Shown piece by piece: positions 43,124 to 60,962 of a stretch of DNA of 64,000 nt. The notes below the pieces were generated by a model. That model was not told where the DNA came from. It saw nothing but the letters and a program-made list of their open reading frames with translations, and ran no database searches. The position numbers were made by a program, and so were the translations under genes. How positions within the stretch are numbered: position 1 is the stretch's first letter; every line of letters begins with the position of its first letter. The DNA lies in the IMG/VR virus record IMGVR_UViG_3300019776_000324, positions 188,001 through 252,000 of that record; one strand, 5' to 3'. The DNA is from a virus.

Positions 43124-43360
43124 TTTTCGAACGCCGGGTGATACCGGCTAGTGCGACCCGCACGATAACTGGTCTTATCAACCGGGGGTGGTCCCAGTCT
43201 AACCCTAACTGGCGCTGGCAATGCGATAACGAGCCCTGTCGAGCAGCGGATGAGGCCTTGCGTAGTGTGACTGACACTGATCGGTGAACTCACAGTAACA
43301 GTAAGAATAGCTGTTGCAATGCTAAGGATATAAAGGACCGCCGGGGGCTGAAGAGCATTT
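43124..43360 (+). other. GC-rich structured non-coding region before the HNH gene
   Basis: About 240 bases with several consecutive hairpins: GCCGG/CCGGC (near 43132-43147), GTGC/GCAC (43151-43163) and AGTGT/ACACT (around 43263-43278). It is clearly more GC-rich than its surroundings and has no good coding frame on the plus strand. It may be a small structured RNA or a remnant. No tRNA T-arm is visible. Confidence 0.4.
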
Positions 43361-43363
43361 TGG

Positions 43364-43392
43364 TTGACGGACACAAGTATTTTTGCTATACT
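43364..43392 (+). promoter_or_regulatory. early-type promoter of the HNH gene
   Basis: TTGACG 43364-43369, 17 bp, TATACT 43387-43392. Confidence 0.78.
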
Positions 43393-43420: not shown

Positions 43421-43873
43421 ATGAGACCAATTTGCGTAAACCTAGGATGTAACAAATTTGCCGTGCCTGTGCGCGGCCGTGTTGGCGAACCTGGAGTTAG
43501 GTATCGTGTGTTTTGTGGCGATTGCCATATTAGTAGCTACAGCCAAACACCGTTGCGTCCCGGAGTTACACCATTTAAGAAGAATCAATGTAGTAATTTA
43601 GATGGTCGTTTGGGATTTCCGTGTATTACTGATCACAGCAAGTTTGATCAAGTCAGTACCAAAGGCAAATTTGAAATCGATCACATAGATAGAGATCCTA
43701 ACAACAATGACCCTGCCAATTTACAAGAATTATGTATGCACTGTCACAAAGAAAAGGGCATGCGACAGGGCGACTTTGACAGGCACAAAAAAAAAGGTGA
43801 AATAACTATTTCGGGCAGACGCTTGAGATGGTCAAGTAAAATTATGTTTAACGAATTATTTGATGAAGCATAG
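43421..43873 (+). CDS. HNH endonuclease-like protein
   Basis: 150 residues from the ATG at 43421 with an AAGGTGAC site; a GTG two codons earlier is less likely. FEIDHIDRDPNNNDPANLQ followed by ELCMHCHKEKG is an HNH metal-binding fold, and Cys pairs in the N-terminal part (CVNLGCNK, FCGDCH) suggest an extra zinc knuckle. Could be a homing-type or host-DNA-cleaving enzyme. It sits at the head of the nuclease/methyltransferase module. Confidence 0.82.
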   Translation: MRPICVNLGCNKFAVPVRGRVGEPGVRYRVFCGDCHISSYSQTPLRPGVTPFKKNQCSNLDGRLGFPCITDHSKFDQVSTKGKFEIDHIDRDPNNNDPANLQELCMHCHKEKGMRQGDFDRHKKKGEITISGRRLRWSSKIMFNELFDEA

Positions 43874-43889
43874 TATAGTGTGTTATAAT
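43860..43889 (+). promoter_or_regulatory. sigma70-like promoter before the possible nuclease
   Basis: TATAAT at 43884-43889 with a weaker TTGATG at 43860-43865 (18 bp). The ATG at 43895 lies five bases after the -10, so the mRNA should be leaderless. Confidence 0.5.
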
Positions 43890-43894
43890 AAACA

Positions 43895-44467
43895 ATGGCA
43901 AAATATCTAGACCCAGCAATCCTAAAAGAACTCGACGAATACCGAAAGCGTATTTTTAAAGAGCGTGAAGAAATTTATCGCAAGCACAAAATTGATGTGC
44001 TTGACACAGACACGCTGAGTTCCTTATCAGTTTACGAAATCGTCAGTCAATACGACGCCGACTATAATATTAACTTTGCTAGAAATGGCGAAGATGCAAA
44101 ATCTCAAGGTGTGCTAATTGAACAAAAATGCAGTCGTGTTGAACGACGCAAGCGATTAGGCACTTACCCAGATGCACTGTATCAATTTCATGCCATGGGC
44201 GATCTAATATATCCAAGATATATCTTAGTAAGTCGAGACAAAACCACATTAGAACTAGTTAGGATTTACGATATCAGTGCTCCTAAAAATATCAAGGTAG
44301 TTCAAGACTGTTTAATGGGCGAGCGCCAGGCTTGGGAAGATCGTTGTGCCATTGATAAAAAATATATGAAACGAGATGTAATTGGTATTCCTGAATCTGT
44401 ACTCAAAGACAATTTAAAAATTACAAAAACATTAACCGTTAACAATTGTGAAGTAACTATTGCTTGA
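43895..44467 (+). CDS. possible PD-(D/E)xK-type nuclease
   Basis: 190 residues. An N-terminal charged helix is followed by a core with DADYNINFARNGEDA and GVLIEQKCSRVE, resembling the D...E-x-K active site of restriction-type nucleases, then YILVSRDKTTLELVRIYDIS strands. Lying between an HNH gene and a DNA methyltransferase-like gene adds weight. The nuclease call is tentative. No ribosome site; leaderless start predicted. Confidence 0.45.
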   Translation: MAKYLDPAILKELDEYRKRIFKEREEIYRKHKIDVLDTDTLSSLSVYEIVSQYDADYNINFARNGEDAKSQGVLIEQKCSRVERRKRLGTYPDALYQFHAMGDLIYPRYILVSRDKTTLELVRIYDISAPKNIKVVQDCLMGERQAWEDRCAIDKKYMKRDVIGIPESVLKDNLKITKTLTVNNCEVTIA

Positions 44468-44475
44468 TATAAATA
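44468..44475 (+). promoter_or_regulatory. exact T4-type late promoter TATAAATA
   Basis: It directly precedes the methyltransferase ATG at 44480 (four bases between), with no ribosome site. A leaderless late mRNA is predicted. Confidence 0.75.
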
Positions 44476-44479
44476 CGTG

Positions 44480-45727
44480 ATGATATATACCCGGCAACAA
44501 TTTTTAAAACAGTTTAAACTAAACAAAAATATTAGTTATACAGACTTTTGCTCAAAGATTGCTGTTCTCAACGGCAGTGATACTTCTGGGCAATTTGTTA
44601 CTCGCAGTGACTTGGATACCTTTGTTAAGAAGAACGCAACCAAAGACAATCGTGTCAGTAGGCTAGACGATTACAAGAAGAAACTGTACCAAGTGCTGGT
44701 TACAGATGCAGATGAAGCACTAGGACAGTGGTTTGACCGTACTGCTGCTATCTCTGAAAATATTGATTATTATTTTCAACTTCCAAATGCCAGCATACTT
44801 GAAGACAAGACATTTGCTGGGCGCACACATTCCAAGTATGGTCGCTTGTGTAAGAATATAAACTTTGAGCAGTTCTTCAACACACGCAAACTATACTCCA
44901 ATGACTTTGAATATACATTTGGCTTGATGCGAGCCATGTTTGAAGATTTTAAAATTCGTAATAGTTTGGTTGGCCCTGCTATGTTTGATCATATATGCCG
45001 TATAGAAGATCGTAACTACGGGCAGTTCTGGACTGACTTTATGATGGGGTGTAATCGTGCAAGCGTATTCAATCCTGTAACATATCGTGGCATACTAGAT
45101 GAACTATTGCCAGGAGAAACATTGTTTGCACCTGTTATGGGTTGGAATAGCTATCAGCTGGCATTTTATAACAGTCACTTTAAACATTTTGTAGCTACTG
45201 ATGTGATTCCAGAAGTAGTCAACAATGGAAAGAAATTACACCAAGAGTGGTTAGCGTATAAAGATCGCAGTTTATTTGAACTAGAGGACAAGACTGTTAA
45301 GTTATATTGTTCGCCCAGCGAAGAGCTAGCAAAGGGCACAGACTTTGTGGCTATGTATCAAGGTCAAGTTGATGCGGTGTTGTTTAGTCCACCATACTTT
45401 GACTTAGAGATATATCCCAGTGCTGACCAAAGTTTTACTAACTATCCCAACTATCAAGATTGGTTATTGAACTATTGGGAAGCTACAGTTAAGACAGCTA
45501 AACAAGTTCTCAAACCTGGCGGCCGCTTTGCTTTTGTAATTAGTAACTATCGTAACAAGGCCAAACAAGAAGTCGCTATTAGCCAAGACATGCGAGATAT
45601 AGTTGAATTACATTTAGGTAAACCTACACACTATAAAGTACAGTGGTCTGCTATTGCTGGAGGTCGACAAGCTATGAAAACTAGAGATGGTAATTTTGAA
45701 GATCTCTGGTTATTTGAAAAGGATTAA
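44480..45727 (+). CDS. SPPY-type amino-methyltransferase (DNA methylase-like)
   Basis: 415 residues. DAVLFSPPYFDLEIY contains the SPPY motif IV of N4-cytosine/N6-adenine DNA methylases. LFAPVMGWNSYQLAF and FVATDV form the SAM site (motif I region), and LKPGGRFAFVISNYR a later motif. The N-terminal third is a helical domain of unknown role. It overlaps no gene but is two bases from the ABC-GNAT gene, so the two probably act together. Target DNA or other substrate unknown. Confidence 0.82.
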   Translation: MIYTRQQFLKQFKLNKNISYTDFCSKIAVLNGSDTSGQFVTRSDLDTFVKKNATKDNRVSRLDDYKKKLYQVLVTDADEALGQWFDRTAAISENIDYYFQLPNASILEDKTFAGRTHSKYGRLCKNINFEQFFNTRKLYSNDFEYTFGLMRAMFEDFKIRNSLVGPAMFDHICRIEDRNYGQFWTDFMMGCNRASVFNPVTYRGILDELLPGETLFAPVMGWNSYQLAFYNSHFKHFVATDVIPEVVNNGKKLHQEWLAYKDRSLFELEDKTVKLYCSPSEELAKGTDFVAMYQGQVDAVLFSPPYFDLEIYPSADQSFTNYPNYQDWLLNYWEATVKTAKQVLKPGGRFAFVISNYRNKAKQEVAISQDMRDIVELHLGKPTHYKVQWSAIAGGRQAMKTRDGNFEDLWLFEKD

Positions 45728-45728
45728 C

Positions 45729-46775
45729 ATGAATTACTTAGACGAAATTCGAGCTCGATATGATATCAAGGACTATGTAGAAAGTCCTGTAACTATACCA
45801 GAGCTACCTACAGATGGCATTGTACTAATTGTTGGCACAAGTGGGTCAGGAAAAACTACAATATTAAAAACAGTAGACAACCCAAAACCTATTGTGATTG
45901 ATCACGCTAAAACTGTCATTGAAAACTTCTCTACTCCTGAGCAGGGTGAAGAACTGTTACTGGCTTGCGGGCTAAGAACTATTCCTGCTTGGTTCCGTGC
46001 TCCTAATACTTTAAGCAATGGTGAGTTTCATAGATTTGAAATTGCTGTAGGCTTAGATCAAGGACACACAATCATTGATGAGTTTACAAGTGTTGTTGAC
46101 CGTGACACTGCTAAAAGTCTTGCTTATAGTGTTCGCAAGTATTTTGACCGTAATCCTGGTGTGTTGTATATTGCATCATGTCACAGAGATATCATTGACT
46201 GGTTAGATCCAGAATGGGTGTACGATACCGACTTACAGGTATTAGAAAACCGGAGGTCACCCTTTCGTCTGGGACGACGACCCGACATTACCCTTACCAT
46301 CAGAAGCACAGGTCCGCAGTATTGGGATATGTTCAAAAAGTATCACTATCTCGACACAAACATGAGTCGTAGTGGTCACTATTATGTTGGCCTTATTGGA
46401 GATAAACCTGTGGCATTTCACGCAGTATTACATTCGACCAACAGAGATATTCATAGTTACTGGCGTGGACATCGCACAGTTGTACTACCTGAGTTTCAAG
46501 GCATGGGAATAGGCACAGCATTTAGCGATGCTATTGCTCAGATCTATGTAGACAAGGGCTTAAGATATTTCTCTAAAACAGCACATCCTAGCTTTGGTGA
46601 ACACCGCGAAAAGTCTGACCTATGGCGTCCAACCAGCACTAACAAGAAAAGTCGTTTAGGTAGCTATCTACTTAAAGACGGTTCAGCTCGTAAGATGCCC
46701 GGCTACGGTGGAACTACTACAGCCCGAGATGCTGGTCGTATTTGCTACAGTCACGAATATATTGGCCAAAAGTGA
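45729..46775 (+). CDS. ABC-type ATPase fused to GNAT-like (Mom-like?) domain
   Basis: 348 residues. The N-terminal half is a full ABC ATPase: Walker A GTSGSGKTT, signature LSNGEFHRFE, Walker B HTIIDEFTS, H-loop IASCHRD. The C-terminal half (about 205-348) is GNAT-like: GHYYVGLIGDKPVAFHAVLH, HRTVVLPEFQGMGIGTAF, YFSKTAHPSFGEHREKS. Proteins of this plan are widespread in phages and can resemble Mom, the GNAT-fold enzyme of phage Mu that modifies adenine in DNA. DNA modification is therefore a reasonable guess. The start at 45729 is the first ATG after the methylase stop. Confidence 0.8.
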   Translation: MNYLDEIRARYDIKDYVESPVTIPELPTDGIVLIVGTSGSGKTTILKTVDNPKPIVIDHAKTVIENFSTPEQGEELLLACGLRTIPAWFRAPNTLSNGEFHRFEIAVGLDQGHTIIDEFTSVVDRDTAKSLAYSVRKYFDRNPGVLYIASCHRDIIDWLDPEWVYDTDLQVLENRRSPFRLGRRPDITLTIRSTGPQYWDMFKKYHYLDTNMSRSGHYYVGLIGDKPVAFHAVLHSTNRDIHSYWRGHRTVVLPEFQGMGIGTAFSDAIAQIYVDKGLRYFSKTAHPSFGEHREKSDLWRPTSTNKKSRLGSYLLKDGSARKMPGYGGTTTARDAGRICYSHEYIGQK

Positions 46776-49019: not shown

Positions 49020-49559
49020 ATGAAGACAGTAGGACATAAATTAGAGAAGTTTGTAGTAACCGGTGTCAAGCCAGGACAACCAGAAGATGCGTTCTTTGAT
49101 ATCACAGAAGAATCATTTCCAGGCAAATGGAAAGTAATCGTTTACTATCCAAAAGATTTTACATTCGTATGCCCAACAGAGATTGTAGCCTACGACAAGT
49201 TAACAGGCGACTTTAGTGACCGTGATGCAGTATTGCTAACAGGTAGCACAGACAATGAGTTCTGTAAAGTTAGCTGGCAGAATGCTCACAGTGATTTGAA
49301 GAAGATCACACACAATCAGTTCGCTGACACACAGCGTGGTGAGTTGAGTTTGATCGAACAGTTAGGCGTGTTCTATGCTCCAGCAGGTGCAGCACTTCGC
49401 GCAACATTCATCGTTGACCCAGACAATGTTATCCAGCATGTCACAGTAAACAACTTGAATGTTGGTCGTAGCCCAGAAGAAACATTGCGTGTATTGGATG
49501 CGTTACAAACTGGTGAATTATGTGCATGTAACCGTACAGTAGGCGGGGAGACTCTATAA
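49020..49559 (+). CDS. ahpC: peroxiredoxin AhpC
   Basis: 179 residues, a 2-Cys peroxiredoxin. The peroxidatic Cys is in DFTFVCPTE, the resolving Cys in GELCACNRTVGG. It reduces hydrogen peroxide and organic peroxides, normally recycled by AhpD or AhpF. An AAAGGAG site precedes the ATG. The stop overlaps the AhpD start. Phage copies are rare. Confidence 0.93.
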   Translation: MKTVGHKLEKFVVTGVKPGQPEDAFFDITEESFPGKWKVIVYYPKDFTFVCPTEIVAYDKLTGDFSDRDAVLLTGSTDNEFCKVSWQNAHSDLKKITHNQFADTQRGELSLIEQLGVFYAPAGAALRATFIVDPDNVIQHVTVNNLNVGRSPEETLRVLDALQTGELCACNRTVGGETL

Positions 49560-50065
49560 TGTCTTTTATCGAGCAAGTCAAAAGTGCCTTGCCTGATTAC
49601 GCAAAGGACGCCAAGTTAAATCTTGATGCGGTCCTTTTGCGTAGTACATTAGATGCTGATGTGGCCATGGGTTGTGCTGTAGCCGCATTGGCCGCAACAG
49701 GCAATGGCAAATTAGTTAGTTTAATTTTAGCCGATGAACCAGCACTAGCTGAATCAGCAATGACAGCCGCTAGCATTATGGCACAAAACAATGTATGGTA
49801 TCCATATGTTGAAATGGCTGATGATCCTGCACTTAAAGGTTTGCCTGCACAGTTGCGCATGAATGCTATTGCTAGCCATGGCGGAACTACCAAGTCAAAC
49901 TTTGAAGCATTCTCATTGGCAGCTAGTATCGTAGGCAAGTGTCACTTCTGTGTAAAAGCACACTACGAAACACTCAAGCAAGAAGGCTATACAGTAGAGA
50001 ATCTGCGTGATATTGGCCGTATTGCCGCAGTAATGAATAGTGTAGCAAAAGTGTTAAATAGCTAA
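49559..50065 (+). CDS. ahpD: alkyl hydroperoxide reductase partner AhpD
   Basis: 168 residues. The catalytic SIVGKCHFCVKAHYETL holds the CxxC plus His of AhpD, which reduces AhpC through a thiol relay in some bacteria. Full length and coupled to ahpC (TAATG). Together they form a working peroxide-removal pair. Confidence 0.92.
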   Translation: MSFIEQVKSALPDYAKDAKLNLDAVLLRSTLDADVAMGCAVAALAATGNGKLVSLILADEPALAESAMTAASIMAQNNVWYPYVEMADDPALKGLPAQLRMNAIASHGGTTKSNFEAFSLAASIVGKCHFCVKAHYETLKQEGYTVENLRDIGRIAAVMNSVAKVLNS

Positions 50066-60096: not shown

Positions 60097-60639
60097 ATGC
60101 GTAACGAAATCAACTTAATTGAAGCAAGCACCCGTCCAGCTAAACTGGAAACTACTCCACTGCCATATGCAGAAAAGGCCTTAGATCCTGTAATGAGCAA
60201 AGAGACCATAGAATATCACTATGAACATCTTGCAAAAGGCTACGCAAAACGCTATAATAGTGGTGAAGGCAATGCAGACTTTAACCGTGCTGGTAGCTTT
60301 TTACACAATAAATTTTTCCCACAACTACAACCGCCCAAAGGCGCAAACCGTCCCAAAGGAGCAGTACTTGAACTCATTGAAACAAACTTCAAAACATACG
60401 AAGACTTTAAAGATGAATTTAAAAAAGTGGCCATGGCTGTGCAGGGATCGGGCTGGGTATACCTTAGCACATCGGGCACGATTAAAACCATTCCAAACCA
60501 TCAGGTTAGAACAGATATCTGTTTACTCGTTGATTGGTGGGAGCATGCTTGGGCACTAGATTATCAATGGGACAAAGAAAAGTACCTGGATAATATTTGG
60601 AAAATTATTAATTGGAATGTTTGTAGCGAAAGATTATGA
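60097..60639 (+). CDS. Fe/Mn superoxide dismutase-like protein
   Basis: 180 residues from the ATG at 60097. The metal ligands can be placed: His in TIEYHYEHL, His in GSFLHNKFF, and Asp plus His in [10 protein letters not shown]. The gateway Tyr is kept (KGYAKRYN) while the usual His before it is Leu. The middle is slightly longer than typical SodB. It should convert superoxide to peroxide, matching the AhpC/D pair. The stop overlaps the Fe-S gene. Confidence 0.85.
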
Positions 60640-60962
60640 TAACAGTAACCGAACAAGCAGTAGCTAAAATCAAGGATATTTTAGCAGAAGAAAACAACCC
60701 AGATCTCAAACTCCGTGTATTTGTACAGGGAGGCGGATGTTCAGGCATGAGCTATGGCTTTACCTTGGACGATGCCCAGGCAGAAGATGACTGGGATTTA
60801 GAAGTTTCTGGCATAAAAGTGCTGGTTGACAGCATGTCGGGTGGCTACCTACAAGGTGCTACAGTTGACTACAAAGAAAGTGATTACGGTAGCAGTTTTA
60901 CCATTGATAATCCACAAGCAACTACAACCTGTGGTTGCGGTTCCAGCTTTAGTCCTTACTAA
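60636..60962 (+). CDS. A-type iron-sulfur cluster carrier (ErpA/IscA family)
   Basis: 108 residues. The three conserved Cys sit in [12 protein letters not shown] and TTCGCGSSF, as in HesB/IscA/ErpA carriers that deliver Fe-S clusters. Full family length. Coupled to the SOD gene (ATGA). In this phage it could supply the two radical SAM enzymes, or repair clusters after oxidative damage; both are inference. Confidence 0.88.

Follow-up and report, generated by a model that had tools for sequence, protein, structure and literature searches.

The window analyzed here comprises 64,000 bases (188001–252000) of G000, a phage/virus record of 344,244 bases (IMG/VR record IMGVR_UViG_3300019776_000324). 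It contains, between positions 43421 and 46775, four adjacent open reading frames (ORFs) located on the + strand. A first-pass annotation, made from the sequence alone, had described these ORFs as genes for an HNH protein, a possible PD-(D/E)xK nuclease (ORF2 below), an SPPY methylase expressed from an exact late promoter, and an ABC ATPase fused to a GNAT domain (ABC-GNAT). The four genes were found in this order and each of these descriptions was borne out, for ORF2 at the level of a predicted structure. The proposal that they form a single system did not survive comparison with related loci. Probably the best description of the locus, which lies in a T4-like jumbo phage, is that of two overlaid modules. 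In the first, a phage-borne Type II-like restriction-modification (R-M) pair with ACGT as its target would be formed by ORF2 and the SPPY methylase; ABC-GNAT would belong to the second, a separate base-modification module. ACGT is nearly absent from the genome and, among relatives, its loss is associated with the presence of ORF2.

The predicted fold of ORF2 and the loss of ACGT

ORF2 (190 residues, 43895–44467, + strand) matched no family of Pfam, PHROG, or PADLOC, and NCBIfam returned only irrelevant matches below cut-off. Residues D34, RNGED (positions 63–67, including D67), and E76-x-K78 were invariant in nineteen ORF2 sequences displaying 45–63% identity to the window protein. The AlphaFold model of ORF2 had a predicted local distance difference test score of 93.8, and its 19 best matches in the PDB, identified with Foldseek, were all Type II restriction enzymes (PvuII, NhoI, Eco15I). 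R.PvuII was the best of these matches and harbors a similarly spaced RxG(N/E)DA...ExK motif. A restriction endonuclease (REase) fold is well supported by the model and, combined with the invariant D...ExK residues, makes ORF2 a well-supported candidate PD-(D/E)xK nuclease. ORF2 would provide the separate REase gene, with nuclease fold and catalytic residues, of a Type II system. A fold search of BFVD gave weak and mostly unnamed matches, including some PD-(D/E)xK proteins, and sequence searches of the PDB with the ORF2 and methylase profiles yielded nothing useful. The ORF2 family was not found in bacteria in a scan of GTDB genomes.

Based on expected counts derived from trinucleotides, ACGT was by far the most depleted palindromic tetranucleotide of the record, with 22 copies observed for 726 expected (observed-to-expected ratio, O/E, of 0.03), the next lowest O/E being 0.64. 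Near-cognate words were common (2494 copies of ACGA/TCGT and 1522 of ACGC/GCGT). To compare genomes, 20 to 60 kb were sampled from each of ten further ORF2-positive records. The O/E values for ACGT were 0, 0, 0.015, 0.019, 0.075, 0.11, 0.12, 0.12, 0.26, and 0.98. For six ORF2-negative records from the same ABC-GNAT clade, they ranged from 0.90 to 1.13. Among the 256 tetranucleotides, ACGT ranked first for depletion in every ORF2-positive group and 24th in the ORF2-negative clade. At loci harboring ORF2 but no adjacent methylase gene, ACGT was absent (0 observed versus 64 expected). The word was retained at ORF2-free loci whose ABC-GNAT is 85–88% identical to that of the window (observed/expected of 22/28, 20/29, and 24/26 for L059, L060, and L062, respectively), suggesting that the loss of ACGT took place within this clade. 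Both the ABC-GNAT and AhpC genes of the window are devoid of ACGT, and the ABC-GNAT genes of relatives contain 2.4 copies on average. The association of the purge with ORF2, together with the presence of ACGT in the methylase promoter (see below), makes this word a candidate for the common target of the two enzymes.

Other palindromes were depleted in the record, including AGCGCT (O/E of 0.04), AAGCTT (0.22), GTATAC (0.27), and GTGCAC (0.30), and may keep a record of host restriction systems. In the record containing L197 (G045), in which ORF2 has no adjacent methylase gene, ACGT was absent from 40 kb and AGCT was also nearly eliminated (O/E of 0.05).

The methylase, its linkage to ORF2, and the promoters of the locus

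The third gene (44480–45727, + strand, with an alternative GTG start codon at 44477) encodes a DNA methyltransferase of 415 residues. The protein contains the SPPY motif, which is usual in N4-cytosine methylases. It matched phrog_498 (DNA methyltransferase; E = 4e-8) and the PADLOC profile MTase_II (E = 1e-7), and the match to Pfam N6_N4_Mtase was under the cut-off (E = 1e-3). This methylase was the single match of the record to PF01555, and PF00145 had no match in the record. Relatives were detected at 57 viral loci.

Scanning viral contigs with the ORF2 profile identified 52 loci, 50 of which included enough downstream sequence for analysis. A gene of the same methylase family was located directly 3' of ORF2 in 38 of these 50 loci. 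Ten of the 12 exceptions were read. Six had a different methylase gene 3' of ORF2, specifying another SPPY type in L165, where ORF2 is the closest relative of the window protein (81%), DPPY-type enzymes in L183, L195, and L207, and NPPF-type enzymes in L211 and L212. On the L167 record, the methylase gene was located about 13 kb from ORF2, and in L177, L182, and L197 ORF2 had no adjacent methylase gene. The methylase family was also found following another predicted nuclease (cluster c76) in L011, L017, L045, and L046. That a nuclease family occurs with several methylases, and a methylase family with more than one nuclease, is the pattern expected of R-M pairs. Overall, a methylase gene is linked to ORF2 in 38 of 50 loci and in at least six others, as in Type II systems.

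The window pair was compared with the R.PvuII and M.PvuII enzymes, a Type IIP system encoded by plasmid pPvu1. Besides the resemblance in fold described above, M.PvuII also harbors an SPP(F/Y) motif. However, no sequence homology was detectable by profile comparison, and M.PvuII aligned with the phage methylase only around the catalytic motif. The systems also differ by their targets, CAGCTG for PvuII versus a predicted ACGT for the window pair, which has no controller gene and in which the REase-like gene precedes the methylase gene on the same strand.

The methylase start codon is preceded, at a distance of 4 nucleotides, by an exact T4-type late promoter, TATAAATA (44468–44475, + strand). 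The heptamer ATAAATA occurs 46 times in the record and is the rarest of 21 heptamers of the same composition. In 14 of these 46 copies, the ATG start codon of an ORF of 70 codons or more followed 4 to 9 nucleotides downstream, compared with 51 of 2781 copies of the other words (p = 4e-13). The record also encodes a sigma factor of the gp55 type, as detected with phrog_234 (E = 6.5e-23) and by tblastn with T4 gp55, so that both components of T4-type late transcription, the sigma factor and the (T)ATAAATA promoters preceding genes, are present. ATAAATACGT was found upstream of the methylase gene in 19 of 31 relatives, and the methylase start in the record and in most relatives is immediately preceded by the element ATAAATACGT(G/T)A. 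We considered that TATAAATA might be too close to the ATG to serve the methylase gene, an objection overturned by the 14 near-leaderless cases and by the conservation in relatives. Thus, TATAAATA is unlikely to be a chance word. The ATAAATA statistics and the gp55 homologue make the late promoter credible and lead us to expect a near-leaderless methylase transcript. More generally, because ATAAATA lies so near start codons, many of the phage's late mRNAs are expected to have little or no leader (sites 440, 44468, and 60084 of the window).

Sigma70-type promoters were identified upstream of the two nuclease genes, although the overall scan for such promoters was barely above shuffled sequences (22 versus 16.4). 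The ORF2 promoter (43860–43889, + strand; TTGATG-18-TATAAT, 10 of 12 positions) ends 5 nucleotides before the ATG. Of 18 relatives, eight have a perfect match (12/12) upstream of ORF2 and three more an 11/12 match. The HNH promoter (43364–43392, + strand; TTGACG-17-TATACT, 10 of 12 positions) contains a TG before the -10 element. A promoter arranged in the same way stands equally far from the start codon in L065, and copies matching 11 to 12 of the 12 positions are present in L069, L070, L084, and L085. Since its promoter is of the sigma70 type, ORF2 should be expressed early. The order suggested by the promoters is therefore early synthesis of ORF2 and late synthesis of the methylase.

One of the 22 ACGT words remaining in 344 kb is located in the methylase promoter (ATAAATACGTGA, 44475–44478, strand not applicable) and is a candidate site for self-regulation. 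ACGT was present within the 60 nucleotides upstream of the methylase gene in 15 of 17 ORF2-positive loci (0.43 expected) and in 7 of 15 ORF2-negative loci (1.07 expected). It was also found just upstream of the unrelated DPPY-type methylase genes of L195 and L183. In the CfrBI system, the recognition site lies inside the methylase promoter and its methylation represses methylase transcription (PMC12707154). By analogy with this precedent, the promoter ACGT probably lets methylation, or binding of the methylase, adjust methylase expression in the phage. The two arrangements differ since the CfrBI genes are divergent, with overlapping promoters, whereas the phage genes are in line and the methylase gene has a T4-type late promoter.

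The ABC-GNAT gene and its exchangeable neighbors

The last gene of the cassette (45732–46775, + strand) starts 4 nucleotides after the methylase gene and encodes a protein of 347 residues. The ABC motifs (Walker A, LSNGE signature, Walker B DE, and H-loop) are complete and invariant, the GNAT domain was above the cut-off for Pfam Acetyltransf_1, and the protein matched phrog_11143 with an E-value of 1e-82. It has the features of this family, an ABC and a GNAT domain fused in one protein with intact motifs. Relatives were found in 81 cultured-phage records. The same two-domain protein is present in Tenacibaculum phage pT24 (36% identity over the whole length), which connects the window gene to the predicted ABC ATPase-GNAT DNA-modification system (Iyer et al., 2013, 2021).

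The first gene of the cassette (43421–43873, + strand) encodes an HNH endonuclease of 150 residues with CxxC pairs (Pfam HNH_3 and HNH above cut-off; phrog_1271, E = 2.5e-9). Ten members of its family (c25) were found among the loci fetched with ABC-GNAT, three of which overlap the ABC-GNAT start by 4 nucleotides. Querying viral contigs with the HNH protein returned one close relative, located beside ABC-GNAT, and three short unrelated matches.

The usual predecessors of ABC-GNAT in the 49 closer loci were genes for nucleases, methylases, or DGQHR-motif proteins, and a 4-nucleotide overlap with the preceding gene was frequent, whichever gene that was. The genes swapped at this position encode DGQHR/ParB-like, HNH, or GIY-YIG-like proteins or complete R-M pairs. 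Alternative R-M-like pairs were present in L059, L062 (D12 methylase, E = 5e-29), L065 (N6_N4_Mtase, E = 7e-36), L085, and L097, with the nuclease halves assigned by eye from PD-(D/E)xK-like motifs. A ParB-like gene is located directly upstream of ABC-GNAT in five cultured phages, Leptospira LE4, Pasteurella Pmp13, Gordonia Jace and BiggityBass, and Streptococcus MismyG, a point of resemblance to the predicted ABC ATPase-GNAT system. The window gene differs in that it ends a cassette with swapped upstream genes. GNAT-ABC fusions have been predicted to perform an unknown acyl modification of a DNA base (PMC7824862), and the gene neighborhoods of ABC-GNAT fit this prediction. Based on its domains and neighbors, ABC-GNAT is a predicted base-modification gene associated with swappable nuclease, R-M, and DGQHR cassettes.

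The fusion had initially been likened to Mom-type enzymes, which alter adenine. PF25680 (Mom) was not among the matches of ABC-GNAT listed at E-values of up to 10, although phage Mu Mom scored 253 bits in the same scan, and the similarity of ABC-GNAT to the Mom profile was weak (29–45% probability). These results rule out ABC-GNAT as a member of the Mom family. The two proteins belong to the GNAT superfamily and weakly share an HY(S/L) motif near the start of the domain. They differ by the canonical QGxGIG acyl-CoA loop of ABC-GNAT, which has no counterpart in the Mom alignment, and by its ATPase half. Neither a DGQHR gene nor Mom was found when the record was searched for them, but these searches included no positive control. 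The MADS defense system was also rejected, since, of the four proteins scanned, only two matched the PADLOC profiles mad2, mad3, and mad8, and these matches were partial and covered generic motifs of ATPases and methylases. In the same scan, ORF2 had no MADS match and the HNH protein had ZorE-type HNH matches only.

Family c7 (185 residues, motif FEHxIPA...QALNxPT), encoded upstream of ABC-GNAT in loci L059–L107, looks like an unrecognized HNH-like nuclease. A DGQHR-motif protein (c9) was encoded upstream of c7 in all 13 new loci obtained with a c7 query (L213–L225).

Proposed roles, alternatives, and neighboring features

In the mechanism that we propose, ORF2 would be made early from a host-type sigma70 promoter and would cut ACGT in the host chromosome or in the DNA of competing phages or plasmids. 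The phage would be spared chiefly through the loss of nearly all its own ACGT words. The methylase, made later from the gp55-dependent promoter, would shield progeny DNA at the few sites left, and the word kept in its own promoter may tune its expression. ABC-GNAT with the HNH protein or, in relatives, with DGQHR/ParB-like proteins or other nucleases, would be the system that Iyer et al. predicted to make an acyl-type modification of bases. The early view of the locus as one that could attack foreign or host DNA by nucleases, in association with modification, held up. In contrast, protection from the nuclease, then attributed to modification, appears to depend mainly on the absence of sites (22 ACGT versus 726 expected). 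We give slightly better than even chances to the more specific proposal that ORF2 represents a phage-only REase family acting as a weapon, with immunity mainly obtained by purging of the target. Restriction without modification could then be stable in carriers devoid of an adjacent methylase gene and, elsewhere, a late methylase regulated via its promoter ACGT would guard the last sites.

Several observations weigh against the mechanism with ORF2 as an ACGT-specific REase. The REase assignment of ORF2 is based on a predicted model, for which the Foldseek E-values were modest (2.5e-3 to 0.1), with template modeling scores of about 0.4–0.6. Comparison of the ORF2 profile with R.PvuII by hhalign detected no homology (probability of 0.2%), and the pairwise z-values against R.PvuII were about 2.4 for the window protein and less than 1 for several relatives. 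Because of these modest E-values and of the negative profile comparison, which rules out membership of the PvuII sequence family, we claim a fold and not a family. The difference in ACGT between ORF2-positive and ORF2-negative groups at the locus level (Mann-Whitney p = 9e-12) overstates the evidence, since the ORF2-positive contigs come from related phages and are not independent. ACGT was only mildly depleted at some loci containing both ORF2 and the methylase gene (L037, L172, and L192). It was not avoided (O/E of 0.98) in G046, a clear exception that harbors an intact-looking ORF2 and a DPPY-type methylase. Finally, four methylase-positive, ORF2-negative records were partly depleted (O/E of 0.42–0.91), indicating that ORF2 may not be the whole cause, and an R-M system of a host or competitor that recognizes the same word could likewise cause the loss of ACGT. 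The latter idea leads to the main rival explanation, that hosts carry an ACGT-cutting R-M system and that the phages lost ACGT and gained the methylase, and perhaps ORF2, as protection. Avoidance of sites recognized by host Type II systems is known, mainly in non-temperate phages (Rusinov et al., 2018; PMC6286503), and the depletion of AGCGCT, AAGCTT, and GTATAC in the record is in line with it. We consider this explanation unlikely: the strongest depletion follows ORF2, including at loci without an adjacent methylase gene, ORF2-free relatives of the same clade are undepleted, and the GTDB scan detected no member of the ORF2 family. Host-driven avoidance is thus weakened by the orphan ORF2 loci and by the association of the depletion with ORF2 inside a single clade.

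A single four-gene system, in which the methylase and ABC-GNAT would modify phage DNA, in the manner of Mom acting on adenine, and the HNH protein and ORF2 would cut unmodified DNA, has a low probability. The adjacency of the genes, with only 4 nucleotides between those of the methylase and ABC-GNAT, the predicted base modification by GNAT-ABC fusions (PMC7824862), and the repeated association of ABC-GNAT with nucleases and methylases in relatives, often with a 4-nucleotide overlap, are consistent with such a system. However, in profile searches that retrieved their positive controls, none of ten methylase records contained ABC-GNAT and none of 13 ABC-GNAT records contained a member of the methylase family. 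Among the loci examined elsewhere, ABC-GNAT, ORF2, and the methylase were found together in one contig only (L192) and all four genes in none; in addition, Mom was not matched. Outside these cases, the ORF2-methylase pair and ABC-GNAT are separate modules. Least probable of all, in our estimate, is that ORF2 is not a weapon and acts as a non-cutting protein with an REase fold, involved in DNA binding or repair, or as part of a selfish R-M module killing the cells that lose it. R-M pairs can behave as selfish modules, the cassettes move between phages, and evidence from the fold alone cannot prove cleavage. Nonetheless, D67 and E76-x-K78 are invariant in 19 relatives at 45–63% identity, the genome-wide loss of one word fits repeated cutting, and a simple addiction pair would not allow the occurrence of ORF2 without an adjacent methylase gene in L177, L182, and L197.

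Phage Type II R-M systems, the avoidance of recognition sites, and ABC-GNAT proteins as a family are all known already. An exact-phrase search of the open-access literature found no description of a phage REase tied to the loss of its own target. In phages, site avoidance is normally read as the scar of host restriction, as in the near exclusion of short palindromes in response to host enzymes (PMC6286503). In the present case, the loss of a short palindrome tracks a REase-like gene of the phage itself, and this link reverses the usual argument. If ORF2 is the cause of the ACGT purge, it would define a new phage-specific family of restriction enzymes with a predicted 4-bp target and would explain how a phage can carry an REase with or without a methylase. 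A general method would then be to look for phage genomes that have lost a word and also encode an unknown protein with an REase fold. The recurring ABC-GNAT cassette, with its exchangeable R-M genes, would yield further uncharacterized pairs of nucleases and methylases.

No Rfam family or tRNA was found in the window. The HNH promoter is preceded by a gene-poor region of about 200 bases (43130–43340), which appeared GC-rich and structured by eye. Host-like metabolic genes were also recognized by eye at 49020–50065, 60636–60962, and 917–1699 of the window (an AhpC/AhpD-like pair, an IscA-like Fe-S protein, and a CsgG-like lipoprotein). The AhpC/AhpD pair (clusters c27 and c43) recurs just 3' of ABC-GNAT in relatives.

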